From Terramyces sp. JEL0728 (lineage: Eukaryota; Chytridiomycota; Chytridiomycetes; Rhizophydiales; Terramycetaceae), in contig JADIIU010000173.1 in the NCBI GenBank assembly GCA_027603945.1, forward strand, positions 1 through 23,319: 23,319 bases of DNA. Reading direction: 5' to 3'. The position numbers and the translations under genes are program-made. How positions within the stretch are numbered: position 1 is the first letter of the stretch; every line of letters begins with the position of its first letter. The notes beneath the pieces were generated by a model. The model saw only the letters and a program-made list of their open reading frames with translations, did not search any database and had not been told where the DNA came from. Below, piece after piece: positions 3,073 through 23,319 of this stretch.

Positions 3073-5131
3073 ATGGAAAAAAAATGTTCAAATAATTACA
3101 TTATGGGATTGTTGGATGTTGAATCTGGGCCAAACTTATCACCAGGAGCGGAATTCCTATTTTCAGCCATTTCCATTTTACTCTGCTACTCACTCCTGTT
3201 TCTATTCCTCCTGGGAATATACGCCGGGTTCATTTCTCCAATGATTGCAGACCACTTTCCAAAATATGATCAGCTATTCTCGCAAAAGTCTCGTGTATCG
3301 ACAATTATTGCTTCGTGTTTCATTTCAATCATTATCCTTGGAGGTGTGGTTTACGCCTCGGTCGATCAATACGGATTTCAAGGCCTTAATCCAGCAGTAT
3401 TCATTCCAATGCTGTGGTCCGCATCTCAATACTGGAAAACGTACTCGTTCTTGCGTCCGCCAACCGAATTGTACCTTTACATATTGTCTGTGATGTCTTT
3501 TGAAGTCGCAATGGCTATTATTCAGTGCACATTTGTTTCATGGAATCCGCCATTGCCAGATGCTGCTGAGCCAGCTCCAGATACACATGTTTTTATGATT
3601 GTTGCCCACAACTCGTCAACTGGAATCGAACCTACCCTGTTGGCTTTGCTTAAACTGGTTCGTCCCCACCAAATTTATATTGCAGATAATGGGTCAAAGA
3701 AGCATGAAGAAGAAGACACTGACCGACTTACGCAGCGACTGTCGGATCAATATTATGGTCACCGAACCGACCGGCCCATTAATGTTGTCCACATTTCAAA
3801 GTACGGAAACAAAACTTTGGCACAATATGCGACAATCTTTTATTTGAATAATGAAATCAGGGCTGGAAGAACGAAAGCAAAGATTGTCACTATGATTGAT
3901 GATGATGTCATTGTTCCAAGCAACTGGAGTTACAGAGCCATTGATGAGCAATTTAAAGATCCAACAAAAGTAGCTCTGGCGTATCCTTTGGCATCTAGTA
4001 ACATGGATGACTGTTTCTGTGCTGGTTTCCAGGATATCGAATATTTATCTGCAAACTTTATGCGATCTGTCCTTGACAAGCTCGGCGGACAGCTGTTTGC
4101 GTCTGGTGCTATTGCTACTTGGCACATCCAGCCGCTGCTAAAAGTGCTGGAGCGCCATTGCACTACTTTTAACGGCGAAGACCTGGAACTTGGATGTATC
4201 TTGAACAGACTCTCTGATACCAATGATTCCGAAAAGCTTGGTCTCTCTACCTCTGCACGTATTGGATTCATCGCAGATTGTTTGATTAGAACTGCTGTGC
4301 CGCCATGCCCAGTTCATTGGTATGATTTAGTACCAGCATCAATCAAGAGAAAGGTGAAGCCTGAGGCTTGTGCTTGTGGAGAGCACTCCTTCTTCAACCA
4401 AAGGTATTTTCTTACTAAAATAGACTCCGAAGTTGGGATCCTGCTTCCTACCAATTCTTTTACAAGTACTTGATTATTATTTTCACTCCAAGAGGACTCT
4501 TATCCAAAGCTAAATGGTCTATTAGAGTATTTTGTGTTTACAGAATCATTGAGCTATTTCGAGGTGAGTTAATTTAATGTTAGATGCAAGCTTGGTTATT
4601 GGTATGCTCATGTCTTTTGTGTTTGTAGATATCTACAAACTCATGTCCTATTATTTTACCATTATGGGTATTGGCTGGGGACTTTCTTGCACCTGCTTGA
4701 TGATGTATTCCGCCAGATACATAAGAGCCCAAAACTGTTTCCGACCAGACATGCTATTGTGGTACCCGATCATGTTCAACTTGCCGATGGGGTTAATCCT
4801 TAAGCCTGTTGTCATGTTCTACTCACTTATTTATTACATCTGGTTCTGTCGATTCAAACCAGATGTGAGGGCACAACTTGCTGCGGATCTCAACAAGCAA
4901 ATGACCCTTCATACTTGTTGGGAGGAGCAGCTGTTAAATTATCCTATTTATATTGAAGAAATTTACTACAAGCAAAAGAGAAGATCAACCATCAGGCGTA
5001 CAATGAACAGACATTCTACCATCAAATCTCTCAAGAACATTGAAGACAAAGAGAGCATTCCGATGGAGCATATTGTTTCCGTCTCAGAAGACAGGATGCC
5101 GCTTATCATTGAAGTCGACGACTCTGTCTAA
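3073..5131 (+). CDS. Membrane glycosyltransferase family 2 (polysaccharide synthase-like)
   Basis: There are three exons: 3073-4403, 4424-4563 and 4584-5131. The introns are 20 nt each: GTATTTTCTTACTAAAATAG (4404-4423) and GTGAGTTAATTTAATGTTAG (4564-4583). The spliced product is 672 residues. Three N-terminal helices (about 28-53, 75-95, 130-150) precede a cytosolic GT-A domain. That domain has IADNGS for nucleotide binding, the DxD metal site in MIDDDV (D276-D278), the catalytic-base type GED (E369-D370) and QRLRSW (443-448). The last is a Q-x2-R-x-W version of the processive-synthase signature, and it is assembled across the first intron. At least three C-terminal helices follow. This places it with fungal GT2 membrane synthases (chitin, hyaluronan or Cps1-like). 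The lack of the chitin synthase QRRRW form argues against a classical chitin synthase, and the polymer made is unknown. The start is the first in-frame ATG; the ORF upstream of it lacks one. ATTAAA is at 5137-5142. Confidence 0.85.
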
Positions 5132-5182
5132 ATTACATTAAATTTGCATATTTTTATTGTTCTCTGTAATCGGCTTTCTGCT

Positions 5183-5331
5183 AACTGATATTCAAAGGTA
5201 TATTTCCACTACAGCCGGTTATACAAGCCTTCAAACATAGAGCTTCTCTTTGCTCTTTCCTCGCGGTTCCGTAAATGGAAATCCGTGTGACGTTGATTCC
5301 GATATGATTATTTTGTGAACTGATATTCAAA
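5183..5331. repeat. Pair of 14-bp direct repeats AACTGATATTCAAA
   Basis: Perfect copies lie at 5183-5196 and 5318-5331, 135 bp apart, in the promoter region of the Bem1-like gene. They may be transcription factor sites, or the remains of a local duplication; the flanks differ. Confidence 0.5.
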
Positions 5332-5452
5332 CGATTGCCCTTATAAAGGAGATTGGAAAGCACAAATGAATTGGTCCAGTGAGCTGGTTTCATCAAAGGC
5401 TCAGTTCACATATTGATGTAATGGACATTTTGGGATGGACTGGGACACCGAG

Positions 5453-5459
5453 TATAAAG
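5453..5459 (+). promoter_or_regulatory. TATA box of the Bem1-like gene
   Basis: TATAAAG begins 29 nt before the ATG at 5482. It is the best match to the canonical TATA sequence in the window and sits at the spacing seen for the other TATA-like boxes. Confidence 0.55.
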
Positions 5460-5481
5460 TCTGACACCATCCATCACAGAC

Positions 5482-6882: not shown

Positions 6883-7045
6883 ACCTTTCCTCTGGATGAC
6901 AAAGAAACATGCAGACTAACTGCAGACATCTCAATAAACTCATTTCCGCTATTGAATTAGATGTTCCTCTAATCTGAGGATTTCTGTGATCACTCATCCC
7001 AAAATGGGCAAATTCCCATTTTAGTCACTCAAGGTTTCCTCAATA

Positions 7046-8331
7046 ATGAAAACGAATTGGTTGATTCTAGCAGGGGTTAGCTATGTGCATGCAAAGGAGC
7101 CGATCGTAATCCCAATCCAGCGTAATTCCAAATCAACTGTCGCATCGTCCCTGACTCGTATGCAGTTAATGAGCGATAGAATCAACAATGTTGCTTCCAG
7201 TGCACCACTAAAGAACGAACAAGTACTTTATAGTTGCCCAGTCTATGTTGGAAATGGCCAGTATCTCGAATTAGATTTAGATGTAGTTGAATTTTAACCT
7301 AGACCGGCTCTTCTGATGTGTGGGTATTTGGTTCTAATTGTACTGCAGTTGATGGTTCTTGCAACCATCCAAAAATTAACTTGAATGACACTGCCATTAC
7401 TGAATGGCTACCACACAAATCGTTGACTATTTACTACGGTAGTGGTAATGCCACTGTTGATATCTATGAAGCACCTGTTTCTATTGGAAATGACACTGCT
7501 GTATTTCCAATTGGAGTAGCTTCCAGCGCTTACGGTATGAAAAGTACCAACGGACTGATTGGTCTGGCTTTCAATTCTTTGTCAACGATTGCATATAATA
7601 TCAACAAGACTGCACGTCCACCATTCCTAGCGCACAATACAAACTTTTTTGACAATCTCGATTTCCCGCAAGAACAGCAAATGTTTAGTTTCTATTTGTC
7701 AAACTATCTGGATGGAGACAGTGGAGAAGTGACTTTTGGCGGCTATGACGATTCAAAGTTTGCTGGAGATATCCATTGGATGGATGTAATGAGCACTGAT
7801 ATTACTTTGCTGGGGTATCGTCAATCAGACCCGCCAACTCCGCCAACACCATTCTATTGGATGTTTGACTTGTCTGATTGGACTGTTTCTGTCAATGGGA
7901 CTGTTCCTATCTTTGATCAGCCTCTTGCTTCTGGTAAATACAATACATCAATTGCTGATACTGTAAGTTTTGATTTACCATAGGGAACTACTTTACTTAT
8001 ACTTGGGTACGATATTGCCAAATCAATCAACACCGCAATTGGTGGGACCTACAGCCCAACTACTGGCTACTATGATCTTAACTGTGCCTCAGCTGACTAT
8101 CCAGATGTTACATTTACTCATAACGGAGTCGATTTCTCTATCCCTGCTTCAATCTACTTGTTTAGACTAAGCAGCGTGCACTGCATCTCTGGGATCATTG
8201 GACAACGAGACCGCAAAGGACTGAGCATTGCGATTTTTGGTGATATATTCCTGAGAGCCTACTACTCCATCTACGATAAATCCACCGATCCACCTAGAGT
8301 TGGGTTTGCTAAAGCTGCACATCCAAATTAG
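7046..8331 (+). CDS. Secreted pepsin-like aspartic protease (family A1)
   Basis: There are three exons: 7046-7282, 7303-7962 and 7984-8331. The spliced product is 414 residues. Residues 1-16 (MKTNWLILAGVSYVHA) are a signal peptide, and a propeptide follows up to about residue 60. The first catalytic motif is LDLDTGSSDVWVFG with D79; the flap is YYGSG; NGLIGLAF follows. The second motif is ADTGTTLLIL with D298. The C-terminal lobe carries FGDIFLRAYYSIYD, typical of the family. N-glycosylation sequons are frequent, and there is no GPI-anchor tail, so secretion to vacuole or outside is likely. The introns are GTAGTTGAATTTTAACCTAG (7283-7302) and a 21-nt intron (7963-7983). The first splits D|TG and the second splits DT|G, so both active-site triads exist only after splicing. 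AATAAA is at 8336-8341. The gene is convergent with the MBOAT gene, with a 25-base gap. Confidence 0.92.
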
Positions 8332-8356
8332 AACGAATAAAATAGATTAAAATATA

Positions 8357-9828
8357 TTATTGTGTTTTCTTATCTATTGGAATATAAGCCCTGCGGATAA
8401 GTCTTCCCAAGCCAAAAGTGGTGAGTGTCGCATGAACAACTATTGGCAACAAGATGCCGACAAAATACATGCTTTTCCATACTATATACGAGCTTGACAA
8501 CGTGCGCAATATAAATGGCATGTATAGAAAGTTGAGAGAGAACAGCGTTGCCAAATATCCAATAACATCGTATACCTTTTTGTACGGTTTCAAAGTGCCT
8601 TGAATAAACACTGGTCGAAGGTGCTTACGGGCTGTTCTACCCACTACCATCAACGGAACTGACCACAAGAAGGATAAATAATAGCCAGCTAATATTAAAT
8701 AAATGTTACGATAGAATCCATGCCAGAATGCCGAAATAAAGAATGTGAGCGGCAATTTCAATGCTGGGTGGCCAACTCGAACATAAACGTATCGTCTTAA
8801 CCAGTTGGCAGTGTACTTGTTCCATCCATCCATAGCCATCTTTGGGTTTTCTGCAAATTCAACTGCAAATACATCTACGTTCTCTGCAGCATCAAACCTC
8901 TCCTTTCCATCGGTAACGGCATATCCTACCCCAGACACCAATGCTGAAGCTTCAGAGATTTTCCAAACCGCATGGAACTTTGCCCGGACAAACATTCCTG
9001 CAATATTGATGTAAATCAGCCTATTATTAAGGATAATCTACTTTTGAGCAAGAGGTTTTTGGAAAAAGTATTCAGAGTTTGTGAGACCAAAGTGATAGTG
9101 TTTACCGACTACAGTTTCCAAGGTAATCATCACCAATCCAAGAACAAGGGCTTTTAACATTGGAACTACTGTGGATGGAATTTTCTTGTATTCTCGCTAA
9201 TATTAGCTACAAATACCTCTTGGTTGATAAAGCTTTGATAGTGTTTGAATTCGATAGCAGGACCAACCCAATACCCATTGAAAAAGAATGAGTATCCCAT
9301 GAATTCAACCAAACTTGGCATCGCTCGGACTCCATACTCTTTTTGATAAGAATCCAATTCCGATTCTGGTTTAGTCCCATCATGGCAGCAGTATGAAAAA
9401 CTAGACATTTTGATTAGCAGCACCATCATCATTGCCGAGTAATCCACAAATGTCGGATCGTTTTCTCTCCATATCTGCGCTTCAGCGTGAATCCAGGACA
9501 TATGGGCGAGAGCAATTCCGAATCCCAAGAGCGGACCAAACTTGTATTTCGCAAAGAATACATTAGTATAATAAATTAATATAACTTGAAGCACCAGTTG
9601 TAAAAATGATGAGGTTGAAAAGACGATACAAGTGATTATTCCCGATGTAATGATTGAATAGAGGTGTTTTAGCTGGATCTGCTTTGATGGAAGCAAGTTG
9701 TAAATCAGGGAGAGCGGAAATCCAGCGAATAAGCAAATTGCAAAGCGGATGACTTCTACCTTGACCCCTAGCGAGGCTGCATAATCTTGAATCATAACTT
9801 GGATTGCTTGCAAATTTTTTTGAGGCAT
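8357..9828 (-). CDS. ALE1: MBOAT lysophospholipid acyltransferase (ALE1-like)
   Basis: There are three exons on the minus strand: 9828-9217, 9196-9042 and 9020-8357. The introns are 20 nt (9197-9216, GTATTTGTAGCTAATATTAG) and 21 nt (9021-9041). The product is 476 residues if the start is at 9828; an in-frame ATG at 9885 would add 19 residues. It is polytopic. Family signatures include HMSWIHAEAQIW, VDYSAMMMVLLIKMSSF with a following HDG, the Asn-type motif WNKYTANWLRRYVYVR, and the catalytic His in FFISAFWHGFYRNIYL (H356). The order matches yeast Ale1 and animal LPCAT3/MBOAT proteins, which acylate lysophospholipids in the ER (Lands cycle). The splice at 9021-9041 restores QKLIYINIAGMFVRAKFHA, which aligns with the family. 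I chose the 9828 start because the longer leader looks unlike the family N-terminus; this is not certain. I see no AATAAA. Confidence 0.88.
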
Positions 9829-10051: not shown

Positions 10052-13000
10052 TTACACTACTTGGAAATCTTCCAATTTTCCAACACTAAAATCTTTACCA
10101 AAGCCTTGATAAACTTGATCAGTTCCTTTTCCACCTGGCGCTGTTACTACTGTTACCCGCTTATCCTTTTGAAGGAACAGTAGGAAATACTGCTCGATTA
10201 CCCGCTTCAAGTCTGATTTGGTCACTTGATAAAGTTCACGGATTATTGATTGATAATCTTTGATATCCTTGTAGCCACGAAGAGACGCTCTTAATGCAGT
10301 AGACAAAAGACTGGATGCAGTGGCACCATCGCTTGCCCAGCGATATGCAATTCCAGCTTGGGCAGTGTCAATTTCAAACTTTGTGAACACTTGATCAAAC
10401 CCTTTGTCGGTTGAGATTGACTCGACCAGCTCGTGGAACACCGAAAGGGCTTTTGAGGGTTCACTGGAACGGTAAATATCAATAGAAAGTTGTCCAGACC
10501 ATAAATATGCATTTACGTTAGCACCATAAGCATAACCTTTTCCTCTAATGCCAGTGTACAACGGCCCTTCTGCTCTTGAGAGCAATTCAGCAACAAGCAT
10601 TGTTGGGAAAAAGTCTGAGCGATTGGTTAGTAAATCACATTCTACAATTTGGCATAGATAACAAGTGGAGAGACCTGCAACAGGGACGATAAGCGATTTG
10701 GAAAAGTTAATATCAACCTGGTCCAGATTGTAAGGCACTCTAGGGAATGGGAAGGCAAGCGGCAACTCGCTACTGGTAAACTTTCTCTTCCTTTCAATGG
10801 TCTGACACTTTTCCCTTTCCATGTTCCAAATTCGTTTAATATCCTGAGCAATATCAATATCGCTGGAAGTATTTTTAGAGTTGATGATCGAAAAGTAGAA
10901 CGGAACCCCAACTCTAATGAAACTAGGCCCTGGAGAATTCAAGATGTATTCCCGAAGCTGATTCAACATTTGGATTGACTTTGCACCGGTTTCCTGCATT
11001 ATATTAGTAGTACCTTGCAATCGTTTAGAACAGCTTTTAGGAATGATTCCTGCTTGAAAATTGAAATATCTGAATCTATGCTGTTGTATTGAGTTATTCG
11101 AGTCACAACGGCATTCAGTGCTGCACTCCCATCGTTCTTTGTATCTGAAATACTGCTAATCAAGTTCTTTGCTGTAGTAACAATTCTATCTTTTGTAAAC
11201 ACTGAAAACATCAACACTTGGAACACAAACCGAACCATAGTTTCCCATTCGCTCGGCTTGGCGGTGACAAATATTGTAATTAATTCGCTAAGACTGCCAG
11301 TGCTGAAGAGCGAGTTTCCTAATCCAACCCCGCATTCATGAGACACAAACAACTCGGATGCATATTGTGCTACTTGTTGGTAATTCATAGTGGTCACTGT
11401 ATTATTAAATAACCGAAGCTCTAACGGACATGCGAAAAAAAGTTCTTGAAATAGGACAAGGTAGGGTTTTAAATGGCTTGGCAGTGCTTCAATATTCAGT
11501 GCCAATCCTATATGAGCAAAGCCAGTTTCGGTGTGGATGACTTGGCAGGATGAGAATACAAATCCATCATCCAAATTCTCATAGTCAATGATCTGCATTT
11601 GCGATCTGATGGTGCTGGCTTTGGAAACATCAGGTATAGGTGGCATATTGGCAATCAATTCATGGGACAGGTTGACTTGATTTTCAACAACAGCTTGATC
11701 TACCTTGGTTTTCAATTCTGCTAGTCCTTTTGAACCAATTGCTTTAATTCTGTTTTGTTCTTGGACGAGCTTTTGTTGAGTGATGGTGTTGGACAATTCA
11801 ACATCAGGAATCATAAACACCTCACATGCTGGCTGATCTAAAAAGTACTGTTTAGCAAGTAGTTGCCAATAAGAGTCCGGCTAAGTTAATTCCAATTACT
11901 TCTTTTTCAAGCAAGTCGAGAATAGATATAGCTTGCATTCCCAATCCAATTTTTGGAGACCCACCCTGTGATTTAGTATCCTTCAAAGAAGAACTATGGT
12001 TAATAATCAGTCTTACTTTTGTCCGAATGCATATCTGATAATATCTATAACCAAGTTCATCGCAATAGTTTCGTGAGGGGAATCTTCCAGTTCCTCGCAA
12101 GTTTTCAATACGTGTCTCTTAATGGTTGGGGACATTCCACCTGGCTGTTTGAATCCATTGACTACAAAATCTTGAATACATTCAATCACCATTTTGCGAT
12201 AAACTCCAGGAGCAAATAAATCTGGTAGATCTTGGTCCATTGCCGATGCTTCTGATTTTCCGTCGTGAGTGTCATCTTCAGAGTAATCATCTTCCTCATC
12301 TTCGTCCTCCTCAGAGTCATGTCCTGCTTGCTTGTATGGAACACCGCTGAAAATCAAAGTAATCGGAGAATCCAGGTGGTTCTTTGAGGATAAATCAATG
12401 TAATTTGCATATGGCGAGCTCTTTTCAGTGAATCTTTGCGGGAACGGAGAAGATGGATTGTCATTAAAGTATCGATATAAAACTTCAAGAGCAATAGTTG
12501 TTTTTACGTCTTCTGATGGCGGCCCTTTCCATCCATATCCAATGGATCCAACATCTTCACTATCTGATGGAAAAGGAACATTTTTACTGACGAGCTTTCC
12601 TGGGAATGATTTCGGAAGTTGTATTAGCTGGGGTTCGCATTTTGAATTGATTCCTTGGTGGACAAAAGTATATTTTTCCAGTTCGTCAAATAAATCTGAC
12701 GGACGCAACTGTCCACAAATGATAACATAACAATTGTTCAAATGATAAAATTTTTTGTGATAATCAATGATTTCCTGATTTGTGAGTTTGGCAATATCTG
12801 GTGTTAGCCCTCCACATTCATGCGAGTAAGTGGTTTGATTTTGGTACAGCAGCTTTCTCAAATTCAAATCCAGCAAATCCGCCTCGGTATTTTCCCTTGA
12901 AGCCATTTCACAAAATACTACTCCTGCTATTAATACTATTTACCCTGCTCTTTTCCTTCACTGTCCAAGTGATACACTTCGGTCATGAACTGCGATTCAA

Positions 13001-13419
13001 CCAATGTTGGATGGAGGACATGGTCCAAAAATACTGGAAATATCTTCAACATTCCTTCAGAGCCAGCAGTGGTGATCTCATAGCAAGTATGATCCTCAGC
13101 TGTATAGGCGTTGGTCCCAGTAGATAAACACCTAAATTAAAGATAAATACCTGGTAGCCAAGTTGTCCAAGTATCCTCTGTGTGGAATTGACTCTGATCC
13201 GCAGAAAATCAAGTGCTCAAGAGTATGCGGGAGTCCTTTATCATCGTTTGAAAGTGTTGGGATTACAATTGAACATGAGACTAGCGGGCCAGGAACGTCC
13301 ACGAATACAATTCTAAAATCAGAATTTTCCAATTGGTATGCTTTTATAAATGTATTTGTCGTTGGCAGTGCAAGTGGTTGCTTTGTCTCTAAAATGAAAT
13401 TCAATTTTTTGTTTTCCAT
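10052..13419 (-). CDS. SDD3: M16 family metallopeptidase, YOL098C/SDD3-like
   Basis: There are six exons on the minus strand: 13419-13151, 13131-12944, 12923-12018, 11994-11900, 11880-11014 and 10993-10052. The introns are 19, 20, 23, 19 and 20 nt. The spliced length is exactly 1088 residues, near the roughly 1040 of the yeast protein. The inverted zinc motif HxxEH is present as PHTLEHLIFCGS (H65, E68, H69). It is followed by CLSTGTNAYTAEDHTCY, made by splicing, and the downstream acidic ligand region EGKEQGVVFCEM, also made by splicing. An acidic loop (SEEDEDEEDDYSEDD) lies near 12270-12325. The C-terminal half has the usual paired M16C domains. The family is a cytosolic, little-studied relative of insulin-degrading enzyme and presequence protease. 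The start codon is only 52 bases from the CAND1 stop. No AATAAA follows the stop. Confidence 0.88.
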
Positions 13420-13471
13420 TGCAAGTTTTTTCCAGCCAGATCTTGAACTCGAATCAATGAGATGGAATTTA

Positions 13472-16400
13472 TTAAACAGAAGAATAAATTTCTCCTACAG
13501 AACTCTTTTGAATTTCCTCTACAAAGTTAATCCAGGTTGGAAGAGTCATAATTGCATTTAGGGCTTTGATGGTCTTTACAGAGCTCTGGACGTAGCTCTT
13601 GATGTTTTCGATTTCTTGCTTGACAGCACTATCTTTAGTGACTGTAAGAGCACCGGCTTTCAAGAGTACAATCAATTCAGCTGCAAACAAGTTTAAGGTT
13701 TTATCTTCAGTTCTTGCAAGTTTTTGAAGAATCAGATGGTTTGTGATCTTGATTTCGTTTTGGGTGTCTGCTAAACCTTTGAGCACCACCTTGATATAGT
13801 CTGTCATGACTAAATGCTGGTAGCAGTTGTCCAAGAGTGACGCCATGCATTCGTAGGCAGTCTGCATTAGTAAAAACTACCTTTCTTGCTTCCAACCCGT
13901 GATCTATCTTGTTTTTGAAAGGTCCCATGTCAACAATTTCAATCAGTTCTTCCTAATATTAGTTTATTTTACTCTCAACTTGGTTTGTTCATACAAGGCT
14001 GGCAAGAGCTGAGATAGCAGGTCAGCAATTAATTCAGATCTGCTGTGAATCGTAGAATGCAATGCAGATAAGGCAGAGTACCGAACTTTGTTTTCGGAAT
14101 CACCGATTTTATCCAAAAAGTTGATGATAAAAGGTTTAACAATGTTGTTGTATTCTGGGTTGGTGCTTGAAAGTGTGAATCTGTAAGCAGTTATTACACT
14201 TGCTCTGGTTGAAATAGTTGGCGAATTTACATTGTCTTGCAAGATTGGAACATATTTGGAAACATTCGTGAGTGACAATTTCCCCAAACTTTCAGCCAGC
14301 AAACTTAGGGTGGAATCATCAGTAGGGTTTTGAGTTCTTGCAAGTAGTATTTTGAATAATTCGTCATCGAATGATCCAAGTGAGACTCCTTCCGAAACAG
14401 CACATTGCAATAATTCATGCATGGCAGATAAATATTGATATTCAAATTTCTTGTTTTGGATGTTACTGATGAGCACTGGCAAGCTGGTTTTGAGACTTCC
14501 AAGAGAAATTCTTCCAATCGCATAGGCAGCAGAGTTCTTGATGGATTCCCCGCCATTTTGGAAGAGCGAGTCAATTGTCGCAAAAATGTCTGGAATTTGT
14601 TGAGTAAGATCAACGCTTACACCGATTTCTCCCAGAGCGATAACGGAAAAGAATTGTACATTATTTTGGGTGGTGGTCACTCTTCCGTACAATTCCTTGA
14701 TCAAAGAGCTGAATTGATTGCACTTGTGTGATTTCCCGACACATTTGGCGAGGACATGGTAAGTTTCTTTTGAAACGTTCATACTTTCAGCACTAGTTGA
14801 TAAATCCACCAAAGGTCTAACTCCAGTAACATAGAAATCAGAAAGTTCTTCATTGGATGCCAATTTAGACCACAAATACAAAAGCGAGTCAAGTCCACTG
14901 CCGCCAGACACAATATATGAAGAGTTGGCTATAAGGTCAATCAGTCTTGGGATGGTTGTGGTTTTGATAGTGTCGCGCAAAGTTTGGTCGAATTTATCTG
15001 CTGATGTTTCTACGAGACACGCCAACAAATCGAATCCAAGAGTCAAAATGGAAACATCTGGCAAATTGGAGTACAAAATGTTTAAATTTTCCAAAATTAA
15101 TTTGTACTCGTTCAAGTTTGCTGATTTTGCCTTTGGAATCAAGAGAATGAGGCATTGTAAAGAGTTGATTGCAGAAGGACGATGACTTTTTGTAATGAAT
15201 TCCAAAATCTGTCCTACAAACTGATCAAGAATAGTGGAATTGACGTTTTCCAGCAGTGAGGATGCAAACAGAGTTTTGATGACTTCAAGCGTTACAATCC
15301 TGGAAGATTCATTCTTTAATCTGCCCAATAAATGAGGCAATATTTCTGATTCTACTTTTTCAACACTAATCAAATCAGCTGCATTGGAAACAATGGCACC
15401 AAGAGCCAAGAGAGCCTTTTCAGATACTTCAGATTCTACATCGTCGCGTTGCAAGATTCCCCAAGTTACTTGATATAATTGCAAAACTAGTTCTTTTGCA
15501 GATTCGGAAACACTGACATATCCCATATCCCCACTCGGACGCAGAACTACAACCAATTGCATAATAGCGTTAAATGCTTCGGTTTGAACTTTATAGTAAC
15601 TATCATCCGTGGAATCAATAACTGCGTTAACGAAAGCAGGGTAATACTGGCTGATTGAATCCGAATCATGCAAAGTGACAATAGACACAATCAAGTCTAA
15701 AGTTTTGATTTTGATGTCGGTGTGGATTACAGAGTTGTTGAAAGCCTTTGTGTTGGACAACAAACTCTTTAAACTTGGCATAATAAAGTTCAATGAATTT
15801 TCGAGTCCTCCTCTACACACTTTTGCAATTTCAGAGAGTAATTCAATTCCTACAATGGCAGTTGATACAGATGACAATGTAACATATCTCGATATGGCTC
15901 TGACAATTCCAGTAACCTGGGCTTTAAGTAATGCAACACTGGGTTATATAAAAATACCTTCCGTTGGAACCACTTTGGTAAGGTCCTTGGCTGCCCTTGC
16001 GTCGCTTGATTCTTTCTTGAACAGCTTGGCCATGGTGTACGCCAGTGCACTTTACTAATGTAATAAATGCAGTAATGACATCAACCCTGACCGTCTCTTG
16101 TCTTTCATTGAATCTTTGAATCAATACCGGGGTGACTTTATCGTATAATGTTGGGATAGTTTGGGGCTGGTTAGTAACAATCGAGGCCAGCAATTTAGCA
16201 GAAGCTCTTCTTACTTTGTAAGACATATCATCGTCGTCTGAATAGTCCTCCTCTTCTTCATCTTCATCCACATCCATTTCTTCCTCGTCATCGTCATAAT
16301 TAGGATCATACTTGATCAGCTCGAGTGCAAGGTTAATAACTGCATTCAAAGTCTCTGAAGAAATGGAGGATTGCACAAGAATTTCAAGCGCTTGAAGACA

Positions 16401-17323
16401 GTTTTCCTTTAAATCATCATCATCAACCTTGGCAATTTCCAAAGTATGGTCGATTAATATCCTAACAAATCCGGCCATTCTATCAGGATTGGTACGGCTA
16501 TGTTAGCTAAAGTTACCATAAACTAGCGAGTGCTGAAATGATAGTTTGCAATTTTGGATAGTCATTCTTTTTTGATTCTGCCAATAATTCATTAATTAAA
16601 TCCTGGGAAATAGAATTGAACCTTTGATCTGGAGCAATTGTTGAAAAGGCAGACAAGGCGTTTATAGCTCTCTTTCTTACCACTGGTCTTCCGTGATTCA
16701 ATAGCGCCAATAAAGTGGTTGCAATTGCTTGCTGCAAGGAACCAGCATCTGGCAGTGCATTCAAAGTTACTCCAAATTTAGGCAGGAAATCAGCCAGCAC
16801 ATCCAACAGGTCAATTTCAAAGCTGTCTTGCTAAATTAATAGTAATTACAGTGAAATGCTTCAGTACTTTTGGGATAAAGAACTGGATCACTGTTGTGAT
16901 GTATTTGTAATCCACAGGTAATTCAGTGATAATAATCTTTAACGAAGTAGCGGCGATATCACTGGTGGCTGGATCGTCCAGTTTAACTGCGATTTGCTTT
17001 ACTAACGGCAAGTAGTCTTGAAGTTTTGCGACATAAGGCACAAGGCTGCATTAGAACAAAATTACAGCTTCAACGACATGTTTTGCACCTCGGTGTTTGT
17101 ATCATACAAGCATTTCATCAGCGCTTCAGTGATTTTGCCTTCCAATTGCTTATCCAAGCTCAACTCCTTTCTTCTGAGGTCCTTGTCTAAATCACAAATG
17201 GCCATATATCTAAAATCCGAATCCAAGTCAGACATCTAGGTGAGAATTAATTACCTATGGTTAACGAATGCTTACTTTTTCAAGGTGTCCAGTAATAACC
17301 TGTTGGAGCTGATAATACATCAT
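13472..17323 (-). CDS. CAND1: CAND1, cullin-associated NEDD8-dissociated protein
   Basis: Eight exons on the minus strand: 17323-17276, 17235-17066, 17045-16850, 16830-16517, 16497-15958, 15938-13973, 13952-13881 and 13861-13472. The introns are 40 (17236-17275), 20, 19, 19, 19, 20 and 19 nt. The total is 1231 residues, almost identical to human CAND1 (1230). The N-terminus HLEKMSDLDSDFRYMA, the acidic insert before YSDDDDMSYKVRRASAK, HEAT repeats throughout, and the C-terminal IVDMGPFKNKIDHGLEARK joined by splicing to TAYECMASLLDNC all match CAND1. CAND1 wraps the cullin-Rbx1 core and exchanges substrate receptors of SCF ubiquitin ligases. It is a single uninterrupted gene here, whereas in Aspergillus the homologue is split in two. 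AATAAA (13468-13473) overlaps the TAA. Confidence 0.95.
17236..17275 (-). other. Forty-base intron that parses as two adjacent minimal introns
   Basis: On the minus strand, 17275-17255 is a 21-nt GTAAGC...TTAACCATAG and 17254-17236 is GTAATTAATTCTCACCTAG (19 nt). They touch at AG|GT with no exon between. Removing all 40 bases joins LEK to MSD exactly as in CAND1. Removing only the first shifts the frame into a stop. Each half has its own donor, branch-like site and acceptor. Confidence 0.7.
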
Positions 17324-17536: not shown

Positions 17537-18406
17537 TTATTTACCATATTGATATTGGTTGCTTTGCGGTATCCTATTGCCATTAGGATTAGTCTGGTAT
17601 TGCGGAGCTCCATAAGTTTGAGCTGGTTGATAATTTTGATTTGGTTGATAATTTTGAGCTGGCTGGTAGTTGCCATTTGTATAGCTTCCTGGAGAGTAGC
17701 TTTGCTTTTCTTTGTTATTCACGTATGCGGATTTTTGGGTTCCATAATTAGAGGTAGAATTATAGGTTGGTGTTTGCGGGGTGTAATTGGACGGTGGAGA
17801 GGATTGGTAAGTTGGTGCTGGGGATGATCGGTAAGTTGGTGCTGGGGATGATTGGTAAGTTGGTGCTGGGGAGGTGTACTTTGATGCTTCAGCGCGGCCA
17901 GTGCCGTAGATATACACGTTATAGTCGTAGTGTCTAGTGACTGAAGAGCTGGACCTGCCACTTGAATAGGTGGTGGTAGTAACAGTAGTCCCTGTATGTA
18001 TTTGTTCAAGCTTGACTTTAATCCTGCCTCTGTACTTTGCATTGATATCATTGACATGCAGCACGAACTCTGGGTAAATCCCTCTATTAGCAAGGTAGCT
18101 GAGGGAAAACAATGCGAAAAAGACGGCAAAGGTACAACCAAAAGGAATGTAAGTAGTAGAGAATCCGTTTTCATCTGATTTCGTTATACTGTAGCCAGAA
18201 AATGCCATACAGAGCGGGAACAACACGATTGCCAGGATCCAAGTTACCCCAGTTGTTGCCATCTTTGTATGTTCGTTCAAGTACCGCAACACATCATCGT
18301 ATTCAGTTTGGCCAAGGTAGCTTGAGAAATCAGCATCGTAGGGATGTGTATATTTCTGCGAGAGATTTTTCGCTGTCATTTTAAGCAAGAGTGGGCTGGA
18401 AGACAT
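17537..18406 (-). CDS. Two-helix membrane protein with a Pro/Tyr/Gln-rich tail (family copy 3)
   Basis: This encodes 289 residues with no intron. Residues 1-50 carry YTHPYDADFSSYLGQTEYDD and RYLNEHTK. Helices lie at about 54-74 and 84-106. Then come HVNDINAKYRGRIKVKLEQ (about 117-135), a Thr/Ser loop TGTTVTTTTYSSG and the strand YDYNVYIYG (160-168). All of this is shared with the genes at 19410-20102 and 20834-21733, and more distantly with the two plus-strand genes at 17-1368. Residues 169-289 are low-complexity, with three copies of PAPTYxSS and NYQPxQ repeats, and are probably disordered and cytosolic. The GOLGA7/Erf4-like fold is weakly supported through copies 1 and 2. AATAAA (17536-17541) overlaps the stop. 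The gene is divergent from the Cys-rich gene at 18873. Confidence 0.82.
   Translation of the reverse strand: MSSSPLLLKMTAKNLSQKYTHPYDADFSSYLGQTEYDDVLRYLNEHTKMATTGVTWILAIVLFPLCMAFSGYSITKSDENGFSTTYIPFGCTFAVFFALFSLSYLANRGIYPEFVLHVNDINAKYRGRIKVKLEQIHTGTTVTTTTYSSGRSSSSVTRHYDYNVYIYGTGRAEASKYTSPAPTYQSSPAPTYRSSPAPTYQSSPPSNYTPQTPTYNSTSNYGTQKSAYVNNKEKQSYSPGSYTNGNYQPAQNYQPNQNYQPAQTYGAPQYQTNPNGNRIPQSNQYQYGK
17621..17674. repeat. 18-bp tandem repeat in the tail of family copy 3
   Basis: About three units of (A)GCTGGTTGATAATTTTG spaced 18 bp start near 17621, 17639 and 17657. They encode NYQPAQ/NYQPNQ units. The last unit is diverged. Confidence 0.7.
17806..17873. repeat. 24-bp tandem repeat in the tail of family copy 3
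   Basis: Units of GGTAAGTTGGTGCTGGGGAT plus four bases begin at 17806, 17830 and 17854. The first two are nearly identical and the third is cut short. On the coding strand they give PAPTYxSS repeats. Near identity at the DNA level suggests recent slippage expansion. Confidence 0.8.
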
Positions 18407-18435
18407 TTTGTTTGAATGCGGTTGAAAAAGACGAG

Positions 18436-18442
18436 TATTTAT
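18436..18442 (-). promoter_or_regulatory. TATA-like box of family copy 3
   Basis: On the minus strand ATAAATA begins 36 nt before the ATG at 18406. Confidence 0.45.
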
Positions 18443-18483
18443 GGGCTACTCAGTCCGAAATTTCCGAGTCGCGCCATTGAATT

Positions 18484-18839: not shown

Positions 18840-18846
18840 ATAAATA
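18840..18846 (+). promoter_or_regulatory. TATA-like box of Cys-rich gene 1
   Basis: ATAAATA begins 33 nt before the ATG at 18873. Confidence 0.45.
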
Positions 18847-18872
18847 GTGCAGCAAACTGCAGTCATCCACAA

Positions 18873-19319
18873 ATGTTCAAATTCGCTCTCCTACTAGTCT
18901 CAACCGTCTATTCTGCTTTTTGTTCAAAAGATTCCGATTGTCCGAGCTCGCAATACTGCTGGGCAAATTCAAGCTGTTCAAATTACGATTTCCAGCACTG
19001 TAGAGCTGACACTGATTGCAACACAGGAGGATTTTCCGGCTATTACTGCCAAACTAGTTCAAACTCTTGTATAAGTAAAAGTTCCAACTGCACAATGTTT
19101 GCAAACGATCCAACGGTATGCATGTCTGGATTTACGTGTGATACAACTTCTGGAAAATGTGTGATCGCGGCTATGCACAACTTTGCATTGACTTGGTATA
19201 ATTGCTACGTTCCTGCCTTGATTGTTGCTGTAGCATGGGGAAATGTTTTGCAAAAAGTGTTTTCGAATTCTAAATTGAAGAAGCAATGGGCTGAAGAACG
19301 ATCTGCATTGAAAAATTGA
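18873..19319 (+). CDS. Twelve-cysteine secreted or type I membrane protein, copy 1
   Basis: This encodes 148 residues with no intron. The signal peptide is MFKFALLLVSTVYSA. A small ectodomain has 12 cysteines, with repeated D-x-D-C and YC pairs (CSKDSDCPSSQYC, CRADTDCNTGGFSGYYC) and several Asn sequons. It is followed by WYNCYVPALIVAVAWGNVL, a single hydrophobic helix, and a short charged tail ending KKQWAEERSALKN. The gene at 20359 has the same 12 cysteines with nearly the same spacing and the tail QKQWTEERAAL. The ATG chosen is the one directly before the signal peptide. I do not recognise the family. The layout suggests a small cell-surface or ER-lumen protein. It converges on family copy 4 (gap 90 bases). 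AATAAA is at 19326-19331. Confidence 0.82.
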   Translation: MFKFALLLVSTVYSAFCSKDSDCPSSQYCWANSSCSNYDFQHCRADTDCNTGGFSGYYCQTSSNSCISKSSNCTMFANDPTVCMSGFTCDTTSGKCVIAAMHNFALTWYNCYVPALIVAVAWGNVLQKVFSNSKLKKQWAEERSALKN

Positions 19320-19409
19320 ATTTATAATAAATCATATATATTACTAATATTGGCTCTAGAGCTCCATTTTTGGACATGTGCTTAAAGTACTGGTATCTAA
19401 GTAATATTA

Positions 19410-20102
19410 CTATTGCCGAGAAGTCGGGATGAATTGATTCGGCGGACTGGATTGCATTTGAAACGCCTGGTTTGTCTGAGGATATCCTTGATAAGGAGGT
19501 GGTATGGCATAATTGGTAACAGATCCGATTGGGTAGGCTGTGTTGACACCATTCCACTGTGCATACGCTTGAGGAACATTCATAACACTAGGTGGGGACA
19601 CGCCATAAATGTAAATATTATAGTCATAGTATTGTCGAACAGAAGTACTAGCTCCTCCATTCGAGTAAGTAGTAGTAGTAATGGTAGTCCCAGTATGAAC
19701 CTGTTCCAATTTGACTCTGGCTCTACCTTCATACTTGAAATTGACATCGTTAATATGGTTGACAAAGGATAAATAGACACCAGAATTGATTATGTATGAC
19801 GTCGTTGCTATTGCAAATACAGTTGCAAATGTGCATCCAAGAGTAATGTACAGTGTTGTGAATCCGGTTTCGGTTATTTCGTGTCCGCTAAAGCCAGAGC
19901 ATACTATACATGGTAGGAAAGCGCTTATCAGTACCCACCGTGCAGTAGCTATTCCCAGCCTCGTATGCTCATTCAAATAGCGAATAATGTCGTCGTATTC
20001 TGATTGGGTTATGTATTTGGAGAATTCCGCTTCGTAAGGGTGAATGTAGTTCTGCCAAAGGCTTTTTGTGGTTAATTTGATTAGCAGATGATCGGTATCC
20101 AT
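19410..20102 (-). CDS. Two-helix membrane protein with a PPPY-containing tail (family copy 4)
   Basis: This encodes 230 residues with no intron. It is closely related to the gene at 17537-18406. Shared parts are YIHPYEAEFSKYITQSEYDD, RYLNEHTRLG, two helices, HINDVNFKYEGRARVKLEQ, VHTGTTITTTTYSNGG and YDYNIYIYG. The tail is shorter and rich in Pro, Gln and Tyr. It contains PPPY (about 201-204), a match to the PPxY motif bound by WW domains of Nedd4/Rsp5 ubiquitin ligases; that role is inference. The linker between the helices is the most divergent region. No AATAAA follows its stop within the 90-base convergent gap. The gene is divergent from the Cys-rich gene at 20359. Confidence 0.82.
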   Translation of the reverse strand: MDTDHLLIKLTTKSLWQNYIHPYEAEFSKYITQSEYDDIIRYLNEHTRLGIATARWVLISAFLPCIVCSGFSGHEITETGFTTLYITLGCTFATVFAIATTSYIINSGVYLSFVNHINDVNFKYEGRARVKLEQVHTGTTITTTTYSNGGASTSVRQYYDYNIYIYGVSPPSVMNVPQAYAQWNGVNTAYPIGSVTNYAIPPPYQGYPQTNQAFQMQSSPPNQFIPTSRQ

Positions 20103-20125
20103 TGGTTATCGATCACTCGTTTAGG

Positions 20126-20133
20126 TATTTAAA
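20126..20133 (-). promoter_or_regulatory. TATA-like box of family copy 4
   Basis: On the minus strand TTTAAATA begins 31 nt before the ATG at 20102. Confidence 0.4.
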
Positions 20134-20199
20134 GGAATTCGCAAGCGTGCTTGGTTTTCCGGATTTGGAATGGTTGTTGCAATATTTCTTGTATCCTAC

Positions 20200-20215
20200 C
20201 GGCTCAAACCAGCCG
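20200..20215. promoter_or_regulatory. Dyad CGGCT-N6-AGCCG (CGG-N10-CCG)
   Basis: This is a perfect 5-bp inverted repeat with CGG/CCG ends, in the 256-base divergent promoter between family copy 4 and Cys-rich gene 2. Confidence 0.4.
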
Positions 20216-20255
20216 CTATGACTAATAGTTGTTGATAATGATCCAATGGTGTAAT

Positions 20256-20270
20256 CGGTATACCTTACCG
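20256..20270. promoter_or_regulatory. Dyad CGGTA-N5-TACCG (CGG-N9-CCG)
   Basis: CGGTATACCTTACCG has the same arm sequence as the dyad at 18484-18500, in the equivalent divergent promoter. It is a candidate site for a Zn2Cys6 regulator shared by both cassettes. Confidence 0.45.
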
Positions 20271-20305
20271 GTGTTATATTAGTCCAAAAACCGCTATTGC
20301 ACTTT

Positions 20306-20324
20306 GCACCTTATTTCAAGGTGC
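20306..20324. promoter_or_regulatory. Inverted repeat GCACCTT-N5-AAGGTGC
   Basis: This perfect 7-bp inverted repeat with an ATTTC loop ends just upstream of the TATA-like box of Cys-rich gene 2. It is probably upstream of transcription, so an operator-type site is more likely than an RNA hairpin. Confidence 0.4.
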
Positions 20325-20329
20325 CAGAC

Positions 20330-20337
20330 ATAAAATA
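20330..20337 (+). promoter_or_regulatory. TATA-like box of Cys-rich gene 2
   Basis: ATAAAATA begins 29 nt before the ATG at 20359. Confidence 0.4.
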
Positions 20338-20358
20338 CACAAATGAATCAGTTCTCCA

Positions 20359-20802
20359 ATGATCCGCCAGCTATTCCCACTAATTTCAACAGTGCTTGCA
20401 GATACACCATGCACCTCAGATTCAAATTGTACCAGCACACAATACTGCTCCTTTGGAGGTTGTTCACCATTCGATTCCACACACTGCCAACTAGACACTG
20501 ACTGTGGATTTAGCATGTACTACTGCTTATCAAGTAAACATTCATGCGAACTAAAATCACAAAACTGCACACTGTTTCCAGATGATCCAGATGTCTGTGC
20601 CTCTGGATTTTCATGTAATACCAAAACTAATCGCTGTGAGTATGGCACTGCGTTTAAACTGACATTTTATAATTGCTATTTGCCGATAGCTTTGACTTTG
20701 ATTTCGTGGGCTAGTGTTGTTCAAAAAGCTCTCGAAAATGCAAAGATACAGAAACAGTGGACGGAAGAACGGGCTGCGCTAACAGCAAGCAAACAACGAT
20801 AA
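20359..20802 (+). CDS. Twelve-cysteine secreted or type I membrane protein, copy 2
   Basis: This encodes 147 residues with no intron. It is a paralogue of the gene at 18873. The short signal peptide is MIRQLFPLISTVLA. The ectodomain keeps all 12 cysteines (CTSDSNCTSTQYC, CQLDTDCGFSMYYC, CTLFPDDPDVCASGFSC), then FYNCYLPIALTLISWASVV as the single helix, and the tail ends with IQKQWTEERAALTASKQR. Charged residues and the helix-tail junction are better conserved than the loops, which suggests that the membrane and cytosolic parts have a partner. An out-of-frame ATG at 20343 precedes the start used. The gene converges on family copy 5 with a 31-base gap. AATAAA (20801-20806) overlaps the stop. Confidence 0.82.
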   Translation: MIRQLFPLISTVLADTPCTSDSNCTSTQYCSFGGCSPFDSTHCQLDTDCGFSMYYCLSSKHSCELKSQNCTLFPDDPDVCASGFSCNTKTNRCEYGTAFKLTFYNCYLPIALTLISWASVVQKALENAKIQKQWTEERAALTASKQR

Positions 20803-20833
20803 TAAAGATTCACTGACAATTATTATTTTTATT

Positions 20834-21733
20834 CTAGTCTAATAGATGTCCAGTTACAAACGGATTGGTCTGTGCATATGCTGGAGGAGGAGAATTTGGT
20901 ACCGATTCAACAAATACCGGATTTATTGCTGGTTGGACTGGTTGTACGAGACTTTGAGCACGGCTTGGATGCAGGTAAGTTTGAACTGGGGGATTAACTG
21001 GTTGAACGTATGTAGCTGGTTGGCCAAATACAGGCGATGGTTGCCGAGCTGGTTGTGCAAACATGTTTGCGTATGAATTTACTGTAGAGCTTTGTAGCGC
21101 TGGTTGGTAATCACTGCTCATACCTGAAATAACAGTTGGCGCTTGCTGTGGTGCTGCATAGTCACTACCGGCAGTTGATGGAACTCTGCTATAAACAGGA
21201 TCTGGAGAAGAAGTGACACTGGGAGAAGCACTAGAACTGCCAGAAGGATTTCCAAGGCCATACATGTATACATTGTAGTCGAACCTATTCTTTGTGTTTG
21301 ATTGACCAGCAGTAAACCCAGCAAACGCTTTTTCAAGCCTAACACTGACTTTCCCACTATATTTCAAGTTAACATCGTTAATATGCGCAACAAATTCCGG
21401 ATATATGCCTTTGTTTGAAATGAACGTGAGGCCGAATATTGAAACGAATGCTATTATAGTGCACGCTAACGCAATGTAAATTGTATTGAATCCATTATCG
21501 GATGCAGTTACTGCCGAATACACTGTGAATGCGATACAGACTGGGAATAGGATTGTTGACACTCTCCATCTTGGACTTGCGATTCCTAATTTTGTGTGTT
21601 CGTTGATATATTCGAGAATATCTTCCAATTCATCAGCAGTGATGTATCTTCCTATATCGACATCGTGTGCTTGATGGTATTGCTGTACTAGACTGTTTCT
21701 AGTTAGTTTGAAGAGGAGTTTTGATGCAGACAT
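20834..21733 (-). CDS. Two-helix membrane protein with a long Pro/Gln/Ser tail (family copy 5)
   Basis: This encodes 299 residues with no intron. The core matches copies 3 and 4: YITADELEDILEYINEHTKLG, a helix at about 57-76, GFNTIYIALA leading into a second helix at about 84-106, then KGIYPEFVAHINDVNLKYSG and FDYNVYMYG. The Thr-rich loop of the other copies is replaced by a shorter FAGFTAGQSNTKNR. The tail (about 162-299) is low complexity. It contains PPPAY (about 282-286), a PPxY motif, close to the C-terminus. AATAAA (20828-20833) directly follows the stop. CAACCGCA lies 15 nt before the ATG, as in copy 3, but there is no TATA-like box at the usual place. The membrane topology and the Erf4-like assignment are inferred. 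Confidence 0.82.
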   Translation of the reverse strand: MSASKLLFKLTRNSLVQQYHQAHDVDIGRYITADELEDILEYINEHTKLGIASPRWRVSTILFPVCIAFTVYSAVTASDNGFNTIYIALACTIIAFVSIFGLTFISNKGIYPEFVAHINDVNLKYSGKVSVRLEKAFAGFTAGQSNTKNRFDYNVYMYGLGNPSGSSSASPSVTSSPDPVYSRVPSTAGSDYAAPQQAPTVISGMSSDYQPALQSSTVNSYANMFAQPARQPSPVFGQPATYVQPVNPPVQTYLHPSRAQSLVQPVQPAINPVFVESVPNSPPPAYAQTNPFVTGHLLD

Positions 21734-21964
21734 TTTTTTCTAACCTTTGCGGTTGTTGAAAAGCATTCCTTTTCGGGTTGTTTCAAGATTGACACAAAAA
21801 TTTCCCGAATTTGAGATATCAGCGATTGTTTTGTTTGTGGGAATGGCAGCAAGAAGATTAAAATAAAGATTACAAGTACTAATTCTATTCTACATGAATA
21901 CCCATATAAATCCTTGGATGCTAGAATTAAACATTCCCTGGATTAGTTGGATCTAAATAAGCCA

Positions 21965-23319
21965 TTAAAAATCAAGGTTCTTTATTCGTGTGATGCTAAA
22001 TTCTTGCCCTTTGGTAACAATCAACCCATCGCTATAAATTTCCTTCACATCAACCAAATCCTTCTCCTCAAATCCTTCAAACTCTTTCTTCCACCCATCA
22101 ATAACGATATTCTCCACGACTTTAATATTATCTAGGGGTATGTTGAACGCATCTGCGAGTACAAGCTCATAAATAGGCTCAAGTTCAGTGATAATATCGC
22201 ATTGTTCCAGGTACTCTTCAACTATGCTCATTTGCTTGTCAATATCAAAAATAGGCTTTTGGTACTTGCATGGTACAGGCGGGTTTGAATCAAATAACCG
22301 TTTCCATAGACAATTCCCTTGCATTCGCTGTGAAAGCTGATTGTTTTTAATATCATTCGGCGAGTACCATCTATATTAACTAGACTCACTTTACAAAATC
22401 AATAAATTTGCAGTTTGGATTGGCGGCTTTGAACGATTGTATATCAGATTCCAAGTGTTGCGTTTGTAGCATTGTCGGATTATCAGCGTAGAGCAATTCT
22501 TGTTGGAAACTATCAATCATATCGCTGAATTAATAAAAGAAACCTTGTTTGTACTGTTGGAGACTGTGTTTCTGGGATATACAGCTCATCATCGAGTTTC
22601 ATCTTTCTTCCATCAAATTTGAGCTCAAGTAATTCAAAACTAGCATCAGACTTCCAGCTATTGATTTCAATCTTTTCATAATTTTCAATCAAGTTAGATT
22701 CTCGGTCTTTTCGTCTTTTTAAACAAGCGTTAATCATGCTGATTTTCTGGTGTAGCAGGATATGCTGTAATCCGATGCATTCACATGGCTGTATGCACTC
22801 ACAATTTAGTAAATTTGGTATTGGTTTGTTTGAGAATAGTCGTACTAGTAACTGATTGTAAATTGACTGAATAACAGAAGTTGGATCGATTTCAGTCTTT
22901 TTGATTTTTATAATTAACTTTGCAAAGTTCCACAATAAAGATCCTTTTGGCACCGTTTTATTCAGGAACCGTAGCTTCTTGATTGTTTCTTTTGTTATAT
23001 TGTCTGAATTTGAGTTTATAAACAAGTTGGAAATATCGTAATCGTAGAAATCATAGTGTCCTGGTATGCGTGTTTGCTTGTTGTGTTTGAATATTTGCGT
23101 GATTCCGTTTTCAATGATCTTAATATCCAAATTTCCTTTGGCTGGTTTAACTTGTGAGTTTGTTTCTGCAAGATCCTTCCTGGTTGGTGATTGGAGGTTG
23201 GTATTCTGTAATTCACTCTTGTTGTCATTCAAATTCGACTTGCTATCTCCGGGTTGCAGATTTGGCTTGATTTCATCCAGGTTAGACTTGCTATCTCCAG
23301 TTTCCAGATTTGTCTTGCT
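21965..23319 (-). CDS. RAB3GAP1: Rab3 GTPase-activating protein catalytic subunit, C-terminal part (5' end outside window)
   Basis: This is the last three exons of a minus-strand gene: beyond 23319 to 22544, 22524-22390 and 22370-21965. The introns are both 19 nt: GTTTCTTTTATTAATTCAG (22525-22543) and GTGAGTCTAGTTAATATAG (22371-22389). Splicing makes SDIQSFKAANPNCKFIDFVK followed by WYSPNDI, then LSQRMQGNCLWKRLF and PIFDIDKQMSIVEEYL. This is the hallmark block of Rab3GAP1 (FKAANP, FVRWYSP, LSxRM, W, RRLFD). Rab3GAP1 with its non-catalytic partner inactivates Rab3 and activates Rab18, and it supports autophagy and ER-lipid droplet traffic. The catalytic Arg region is not identifiable in the part seen. 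A Ser/Lys/Asn-rich repeat lies at the upstream edge. The gene is absent from S. cerevisiae and S. pombe as far as I know. Confidence 0.85.
23237..23319. repeat. 48-bp tandem repeat inside the Rab3GAP-like gene
   Basis: GACTTGCTATCTCC recurs at 23237 and 23285 with a period of 48 bp, and the second copy runs off the window. On the coding strand it gives units with GDSKSNL followed by Asp/Lys/Asn-rich spacers. The copy number cannot be seen from here. Confidence 0.65.

Follow-up and report, generated by a model that had tools for sequence, protein, structure and literature searches.

Introns of about 20 nucleotides in the genome of the chytrid Terramyces sp. JEL0728

The genes of Terramyces sp. 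JEL0728, a fungus of the Terramycetaceae (Chytridiomycota, Rhizophydiales), are interrupted by segments of about 20 nucleotides (nt) that are very probably genuine U2-type spliceosomal introns pressed to a mechanical minimum. Terramyces is a free-living, cultured saprobe, and its assembly comprises 15.0 Mb in 231 contigs. In one of these (contig C173, positions 1 to 23319; this entire 23,319-nt stretch is here called the window), a sequence-only reading had placed 21 introns of near-minimal spliceosomal size in six genes. Our analysis confirms the observation and extends it across the sampled genome. The segments combine GT-AG borders with a TAAY-type branch motif, homologues continue across many of the junctions, the U2 small nuclear RNA (snRNA) is ordinary, and the class is dominant in the 226.5 kb that we sampled.

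Length and internal spacing of the introns

The sample consisted of the initial 10 kb from each of contigs C1 to C20 (in descending order of size), the window and the U2 locus. In a model-free count of GTA donors paired with acceptors of the form TAAY-N0-4-AG, 80, 117 and 49 pairs were found at lengths of 19, 20 and 21 nt, while every remaining length within 12 to 79 nt gave 8 to 28. A control with ATG replacing GTA gave 11 to 35 pairs per length and no peak. Donors other than GTA contribute almost nothing to the length excess. GTA introns exceed background by about 225 in the sample (182 with TAAY at a distance of 3 or 4 nt from the acceptor, as defined below, and 43 with other branch variants). 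This corresponds to a density of about one intron per kilobase and, as a rough extrapolation, to about 15,000 introns genome-wide if contig starts are typical.

A semi-Markov gene finder was applied to the same sample. Its first pass, in which all lengths from 10 to 300 nt were equally likely a priori and no motif was used, called 141 introns, 36 of them frame-restoring GT-AG segments of 17 to 23 nt; eight control dinucleotide pairs gave only 3 to 9 segments of that size each. In the second pass, for which motifs were learned and lengths were still flat (10 to 200 nt), 132 introns were called, comprising 95 of 19 to 23 nt, 3 shorter and 34 longer than 24 nt. The 95 model introns are distributed as 18, 55, 13, 7 and 2 over the lengths 19, 20, 21, 22 and 23 nt, with the mode at 20. 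Chance and frame errors as a source of the segments are rejected by the ATG, dinucleotide-pair and spacing-background controls. Over these 226.5 kb of the 15.0-Mb genome, the length distribution is narrow, with its bulk within 15 to 24 nt and no second, long class beyond a possible minor share of longer introns.

Within the 95 model introns, position +3 is A in 94%, +4 is A in 61%, +5 is T in 51% (G in just 20%) and +6 is T in 72%, and the 5' splice site commonly reads GTAATT over bases 1 to 6. TTAAT, TTAAC and CTAAT make up most of the branch-like motifs, and position -3 is T in 77%. Phases 0, 1 and 2 are represented by 43, 27 and 25 introns.

To describe spacing, we counted, for GTA donors with TAAY, the bases before the putative branch adenosine (branch A) and the nucleotides between that A and the AG (the gap). 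At a gap of 3, the branch A is preceded by 12, 13, 14, 15 and 16 bases in 0, 59, 47, 10 and 1 cases (background 4.4), and at a gap of 4 in 6, 61, 26, 14 and 4 cases (background 4.7). Relative to the predicted branch A, there are two locks, namely at least 13 bases before it, with a falling tail, and a two-value window of 3 or 4 nt from it to the AG. Judged by the motif, the branch A would be intron base 14 to 16 and not base 13; by the yeast convention, the distance from branch to 3' splice site (3'SS) is 5 to 6 nt. The sequence-only reading had put TAAY almost always 4 to 5 nt before the terminal AG; the distance is corrected to 3 or 4 nt, measured from the A before the Y to the AG. On our reading of the first intron of Vma1, an AG 1 nt beyond the predicted branch A is skipped and the AG at 4 nt is used.

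Window introns and homology at their junctions

Reading by hand, we reconstructed 21 intron segments in the six window genes, between 4404 and 22543. The earlier reading had supplied this range and a tally without every position. The same tally was obtained (nine of 19 nt, eight of 20, three of 21 and one of 23), which requires that a 40-nt block in CAND1 (17236-17275) be counted as 21 + 19; taken as a single block, it leaves n = 20. The donors, described earlier as nearly all GTA or GTG with one GTTTCT, are 18 GTA, 2 GTG and 1 GTT among the 21, and the spliced CAND1 and M16 frames are open, with the lengths quoted for them (1231 and 1088 amino acids). Pfam matches name an aspartyl protease, an MBOAT acyltransferase, an M16 peptidase and a Rab3-GAP catalytic subunit in the window, and a family-2 glycosyltransferase match to a further gene is below the cut-off. 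The CAND1 model matches human CAND1, and the CAND1 protein deposited for Terramyces sp. JEL0728 is 99% identical to it; a query with a single CAND1 exon gave one match.

A wider checked set comprised 36 introns in 12 genes, namely the six window genes together with Vma1, SRP54, AGX, ISWI, Slu7 and Prp18. The introns of SRP54, AGX and ISWI (presumed names, given on recognition of the sequence) and four of those in Vma1 came from the gene finder, and the rest were read by hand. Vma1 of this genome is 97% identical to that of Boothiomyces sp. JEL0866. Nine of the checked introns are 19 nt long, 19 are 20 nt and 5 are 21 nt, so that 33 of 36 fall within 19 to 21 nt; the other three measure 23, 24 and 40 nt. 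Borders are GT-AG in 35 of 36 and GC-AG in one, and T.AY occurs at a gap of 2 to 5 in 34. Homologous alignments or domain matches span 22 of the 36 junctions: seven in CAND1, four in Vma1 by alignment to PDB entries plus two by eye against the Boothiomyces protein, two each in the M16 peptidase, aspartyl protease, MBOAT and Rab3-GAP genes, and one in Prp18. The remaining 14 were placed by open frame only, and the first Vma1 intron (24 nt) presumes the start methionine of relatives.

Two window genes with introns lie on the forward strand. The glycosyltransferase-like gene (about 3073-5131) carries 20-nt introns at 4404..4423, outside the weak Pfam match, and at 4564..4583, with a GTG donor; both were placed by open frame only. 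The aspartyl protease has a 20-nt intron at 7283..7302, whose junction is within the Pfam Asp match (62-410), and a 21-nt intron at 7963..7983, supported by the rebuilt frame and again located within the Pfam match. The other four genes are on the reverse strand. In the MBOAT acyltransferase, the junction of the 21-nt intron at 9021..9041 is within the Pfam MBOAT match (108-362), and the 20-nt intron at 9197..9216 is supported by the rebuilt frame and Pfam. The border of the latter is ambiguous: the length of 20 nt was picked by the spacing rule, and a 14-nt alternative (9197-9210), also in frame, was picked by the gene finder. Of the M16 peptidase introns, those at 10994..11013 (20 nt), 11881..11899 (19 nt) and 11994..12016 (23 nt) were placed by open frame only, and those at 12924..12943 (20 nt) and 13132..13150 (19 nt) have junctions within a PDB alignment. 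The gene for the Rab3-GAP catalytic subunit contains a 19-nt intron with a GTG donor at 22371..22389, its junction within the Pfam PF13890 match (242-359), and another of 19 nt with the sole GTT donor (GTTTCT) at 22525..22543, supported by the rebuilt frame and Pfam; the gene finder gave a 58-nt segment in place of the second.

CAND1, also on the reverse strand, provides the densest comparison with homologues. Its introns at 13953..13972 (20 nt) and 16498..16516 (19 nt) are supported by the rebuilt frame and protein comparison, and that at 17046..17065 (20 nt) by these and the human CAND1 alignment. The 19-nt intron at 15939..15957 lies in a weakly conserved stretch through which the Boothiomyces protein is continuous without a gap; around the junction at residue 423 conservation is low, and Boothiomyces alone aligns well. 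The deposited JEL0728 protein agrees with our reading at five of the seven introns. At the other two, 16831..16849 and 13862..13880 (19 nt each, both supported by protein comparison), it lacks the preceding residues VLKHFT and ARK, respectively, and the corresponding residues are retained in CAND1 of Boothiomyces, Globomyces and Gorgonomyces. Tiny introns are already partly present in databases by way of this deposited protein.

Elsewhere in the window, three reverse-strand frames (17537-18442, 19410-20105 and 20834-21736) resemble one another in their N-terminal membrane regions, have repetitive tails and look like a tandem lineage-specific family; the frame at 17537-18442 gave no Pfam match. 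Interleaved with them on the forward strand are two similar short, Cys-rich, secreted-looking proteins (18876-19316 and 20347-20802), the first of which gave no Pfam match. At another sampled locus (L009, 5868-8556, forward strand), two adjacent similar genes have secreted-looking products with a common ACP[YF][AT]GEHKIAKRSANWQ; we presume that the pair may be peroxidase-like.

Splicing machinery and competing explanations

The U2 snRNA is ordinary (locus L002, 140.2 bits) and carries the branch recognition sequence GTGTAGTATC. Genes for both Slu7 and Prp18 are present, the former interrupted by two introns of 20 nt and one of 21 nt. The Prp18 product aligns with yeast Prp18 over SIGNAAWPIGVDSVGIHER, a stretch that we take to be the functional loop. 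The Prp18 intron (G000:C7:206771-207210, L028) is 20 nt long and reads GC-AG, GCAAGTTTTCTTTGATCTAG; its GC donor continues AAGT, which suggests an ordinary U1. Loss of Slu7 and Prp18 owing to the short 3' spacing is rejected, both genes being present. In yeast, these two factors are dispensable at short branch-to-3'SS distances, and a role as a ruler setting the minimum distance has been proposed for Prp18 (PMC10711555). Short introns in human cells require Smu1 and RED (PMC6692369). The Pfam family RED_N had no match in the Terramyces genome in a search that also lacked a control signal, so that absence is not implied.

The interpretation of these segments as U2-type introns at minimal size is carried by features that can be read directly from the DNA: length and both spacings are locked, the protein reading is open, and genes for U2, Slu7 and Prp18 are recognisable. 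Under this interpretation, the major spliceosome would recognise each intron as a whole (intron definition), and intron content would be reduced to approximately what the spliceosome contacts, namely the 5' splice site, a short spacer, a YTAAY-like branch, 3 to 4 nt and (T)AG. Ancestral introns, once longer, would have been worn down by small deletions to the point where further loss would leave the branch A with fewer than 13 bases ahead of it. Splicing presumably fails below that number, which is the likely cause of the one-sided distribution, and a separate window of 3 to 4 nt would fix the 3'SS. A balance of this kind between deletion and limit has been suggested for reduced genomes (PMC10245619).

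Several observations weigh against this interpretation. Thirty-four of the 132 gene-finder introns exceed 24 nt. Some longer introns may be present as a minor class, because pair counts exceed expectation at 26 to 299 nt (2491 versus 2356 expected, standard deviation 49, an excess of 2.8 standard deviations) and at 26 to 50 nt (251 versus 215 expected); over 26 to 299 nt the excess is diffuse, not peaked. The idea that longer introns form a second class of any size is weakened. Of the 34 long calls, 6 have a short intron at each end and 14 at a single end, where shuffled interiors lead one to expect 0.08 and 4.5, respectively; this covers 20 of the 34 (4.6 expected), and the other 14 stay unexplained. 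The gene finder reproduces exactly only 13 of 20 window introns and puts the Vma1 start inside an intron. Small excesses also appear at gaps of 1, 2 and 5 to 12 nt. At gap 2 the counts are 8 and 8 against a background of 2.4, gaps 1 and 5 to 7 show at most small excesses, and those at gaps 8 to 12, seen at 13 bases before the branch A, we take to be second AGs downstream. Finally, a family search of the 15.0 Mb found no match to U1, with controls that gave no signal either, and the corresponding search for U6 returned only two matches below the cut-off, its controls again giving no signal. The common T at +5 is therefore left with no known pairing partner. The two weak U6-like matches (27 bits; L023 on C199 and L024 on C111) are near-identical in the stretches shown and are probably a repeat rather than U6, and three U1/U6 sequence patterns gave no match, one chance-level match and one unconvincing match. 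A 5.8S ribosomal DNA query, run with no control, had no match in the 15.0-Mb genome. The U1, U6 and 5.8S genes may have diverged, be split by introns or simply not be part of the assembly; with controls silent or lacking, these negatives do not establish absence.

Could the segments instead have arisen from errors in sequencing or assembly, or be frameshifts that resemble introns but are not spliced? The window by itself leans mostly on frame continuity, and the deposited CAND1 protein differs from the rebuilt reading at two of seven junctions. Errors, however, would not have GTA...TAAY-N2-3-AG in common at one length, nor would they favour GT-AG over the eight control dinucleotide pairs (36 segments of 17 to 23 nt versus 3 to 9), and many junctions sit where homologues continue unbroken; we regard this explanation as extremely improbable. 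A different proposal accepts the introns and attributes their size to selection for recognition, with length as a signal that lets weaker sites suffice, instead of to deletion against a wall. Across 65,001 nt of coding sequence free of called introns, 6 strong decoys (those scoring on a par with the top three quarters of real introns) occur at lengths of 18 to 22 nt, and 52 if the permitted range is widened to 18 to 200 nt; a length window is therefore worth about ninefold in recognition. Yet the counts are distributed one-sidedly, close to background at 12 bases and then 59/47/10/1 and 61/26/14/4 at the two main gaps, as erosion against a wall predicts. Moreover, decoys of 19 to 21 nt in the coding sequence are not depleted (their means exceed those at other lengths, 20.3 versus 16.9 with a looser motif and 3.7 versus 1.8 with a stricter one), and selection against such decoys is rejected on this ground. 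As the cause of the length lock, selection for recognition is possible but, to us, less probable than erosion.

The CAND1 block (17236..17275, reverse strand) raises the separate question of an upper size limit. It sits between LEK and MSDLDSDFRYMA. Human CAND1 continues across it without a gap, and therefore all 40 nt must be removed; the deposited protein lacks all of them. The block is probably two back-to-back introns spliced in two steps. A split suggested by spacing would yield 21 nt at 17255-17275 (14 bases, gap 4) and 19 nt at 17236-17254 (13 bases, gap 3), and both halves obey the spacing rule, the 19-nt half with a weak TCAC branch. It is possible, if on balance the less probable solution, that the block is a single longer intron, in which case the genome tolerates longer introns too. 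Homologues and the deposited protein establish only the loss of all 40 nt, not any split. Tandem introns are also rare, as none of the 95 model introns has a direct successor with a correctly spaced T-A-Y branch, and two have looser follow-on candidates that lack this branch; frequent tandems are rejected by the same count. Against a single intron stand the fit of both halves to the spacing rule and the fact that it would be the sole member above 24 nt among the 36 checked. A more far-reaching proposal is that the geometry itself has shifted, with the 3'SS 5 to 6 nt from the branch A despite Prp18 and Slu7 and with intron size limited from above as well as from below, such that a longer insert like the 40-nt block must exit as two consecutive introns without an intervening exon. 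We offer it tentatively and think it unlikely to hold in full.

Two further observations concern closely spaced introns and the CAND1 start. At locus L017 (8121-8164, forward strand), a 44-nt call can be parsed as two introns, of 21 nt and then 20 nt, on either side of CAA, a possible microexon of 3 bases. The CAND1 proteins deposited for Boothiomyces macroporosus, Globomyces and Gorgonomyces each begin at an M right after the 17236-17275 junction. The first exon may have been missed in these three relatives for the same reason, hinting at tiny introns beyond Terramyces.

Comparison with known systems

The mechanism is known in kind; what is new is the lineage and the pairing of short spacing with retained second-step factors. 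Fungi join a short list of lineages with introns at the size floor, and the floor is reached here in a 15-Mb genome, not in a relict nucleus or a reduced parasite genome. Fungi are among the best-studied splicing models, so minimum intron size becomes open to probing in a fungal spliceosome, and a spacing of 5 to 6 nt with Slu7 and Prp18 kept bears on the idea of Prp18 as the setter of the minimum. Genomes like this one can escape surveys, as introns below 30 bp were excluded from a survey of more than 3000 genomes (PMC10639083) and the deposited CAND1 protein differs from our reading at two of seven introns. Among the matches listed from open-access literature on short or fungal introns and on these chytrids, none reports fungal introns of 20 nt.

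The sequence-only reading had likened the introns to those of chlorarachniophyte nucleomorphs (18 to 21 nt) and ciliates, and this agrees with published values. In the nucleomorphs of Bigelowiella natans and Lotharella oceanica, introns are 18 to 21 nt, 19 being the commonest (PMC10245619, PMC4035089), and those of heterotrich ciliates are 15 to 16 nt (PMC10245619). Nucleomorphs and Terramyces both have numerous GT-AG introns in a narrow band, with rare GC-AG members. They differ in that a nucleomorph is a relict endosymbiont nucleus (about 385 kb in Gymnochlora), whereas the Terramyces genome has 15 Mb, and in the mode, 19 versus 20 nt. The introns of the ciliate Stentor coeruleus are likewise size-locked, the commonest starting GUAAUU as in Terramyces, with the branch A at base 10 of 15 and the same 3-nt gap (PMC9505925). 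Unlike those of Terramyces, they measure 15 to 16 nt, and the table for Stentor is without Slu7 and Prp18, both of which Terramyces has; SMU1 and IK (RED) are in it, with one protein entered for both IK and MFAP1 (PMC9505925). Loss of these two factors, as tabled for Stentor, is no general requirement of ultrashort introns, and it is not seen in Terramyces. Mikrocytos mackini also has uniform tiny introns with a conserved sequence, but these are 16 to 17 nt and total 224 in a reduced parasite with 17 to 19 spliceosomal proteins (PMC10245619), compared with about one intron per kilobase sampled here. A reduced or endosymbiotic genome is common to nucleomorphs and mikrocytids, though not to Stentor, and the 15.0 Mb and 231 contigs of Terramyces do not fit that description.

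With other fungi, Terramyces shares GT-AG borders, a TAAY-like branch, a standard U2, Slu7 and Prp18. Cryptococcus neoformans is cited as short-introned at a mean of 63 bp in a fungal survey (PMC8476143). In Saccharomyces cerevisiae, the shortest natural branch-to-3'SS distance is 10 nt, with alternative sites down to 7 nt rising in the absence of Prp18, and in Debaryomyces hansenii the predicted distance is mostly 7 to 8 nt (PMC10711555), in contrast to the 5 to 6 nt of Terramyces.

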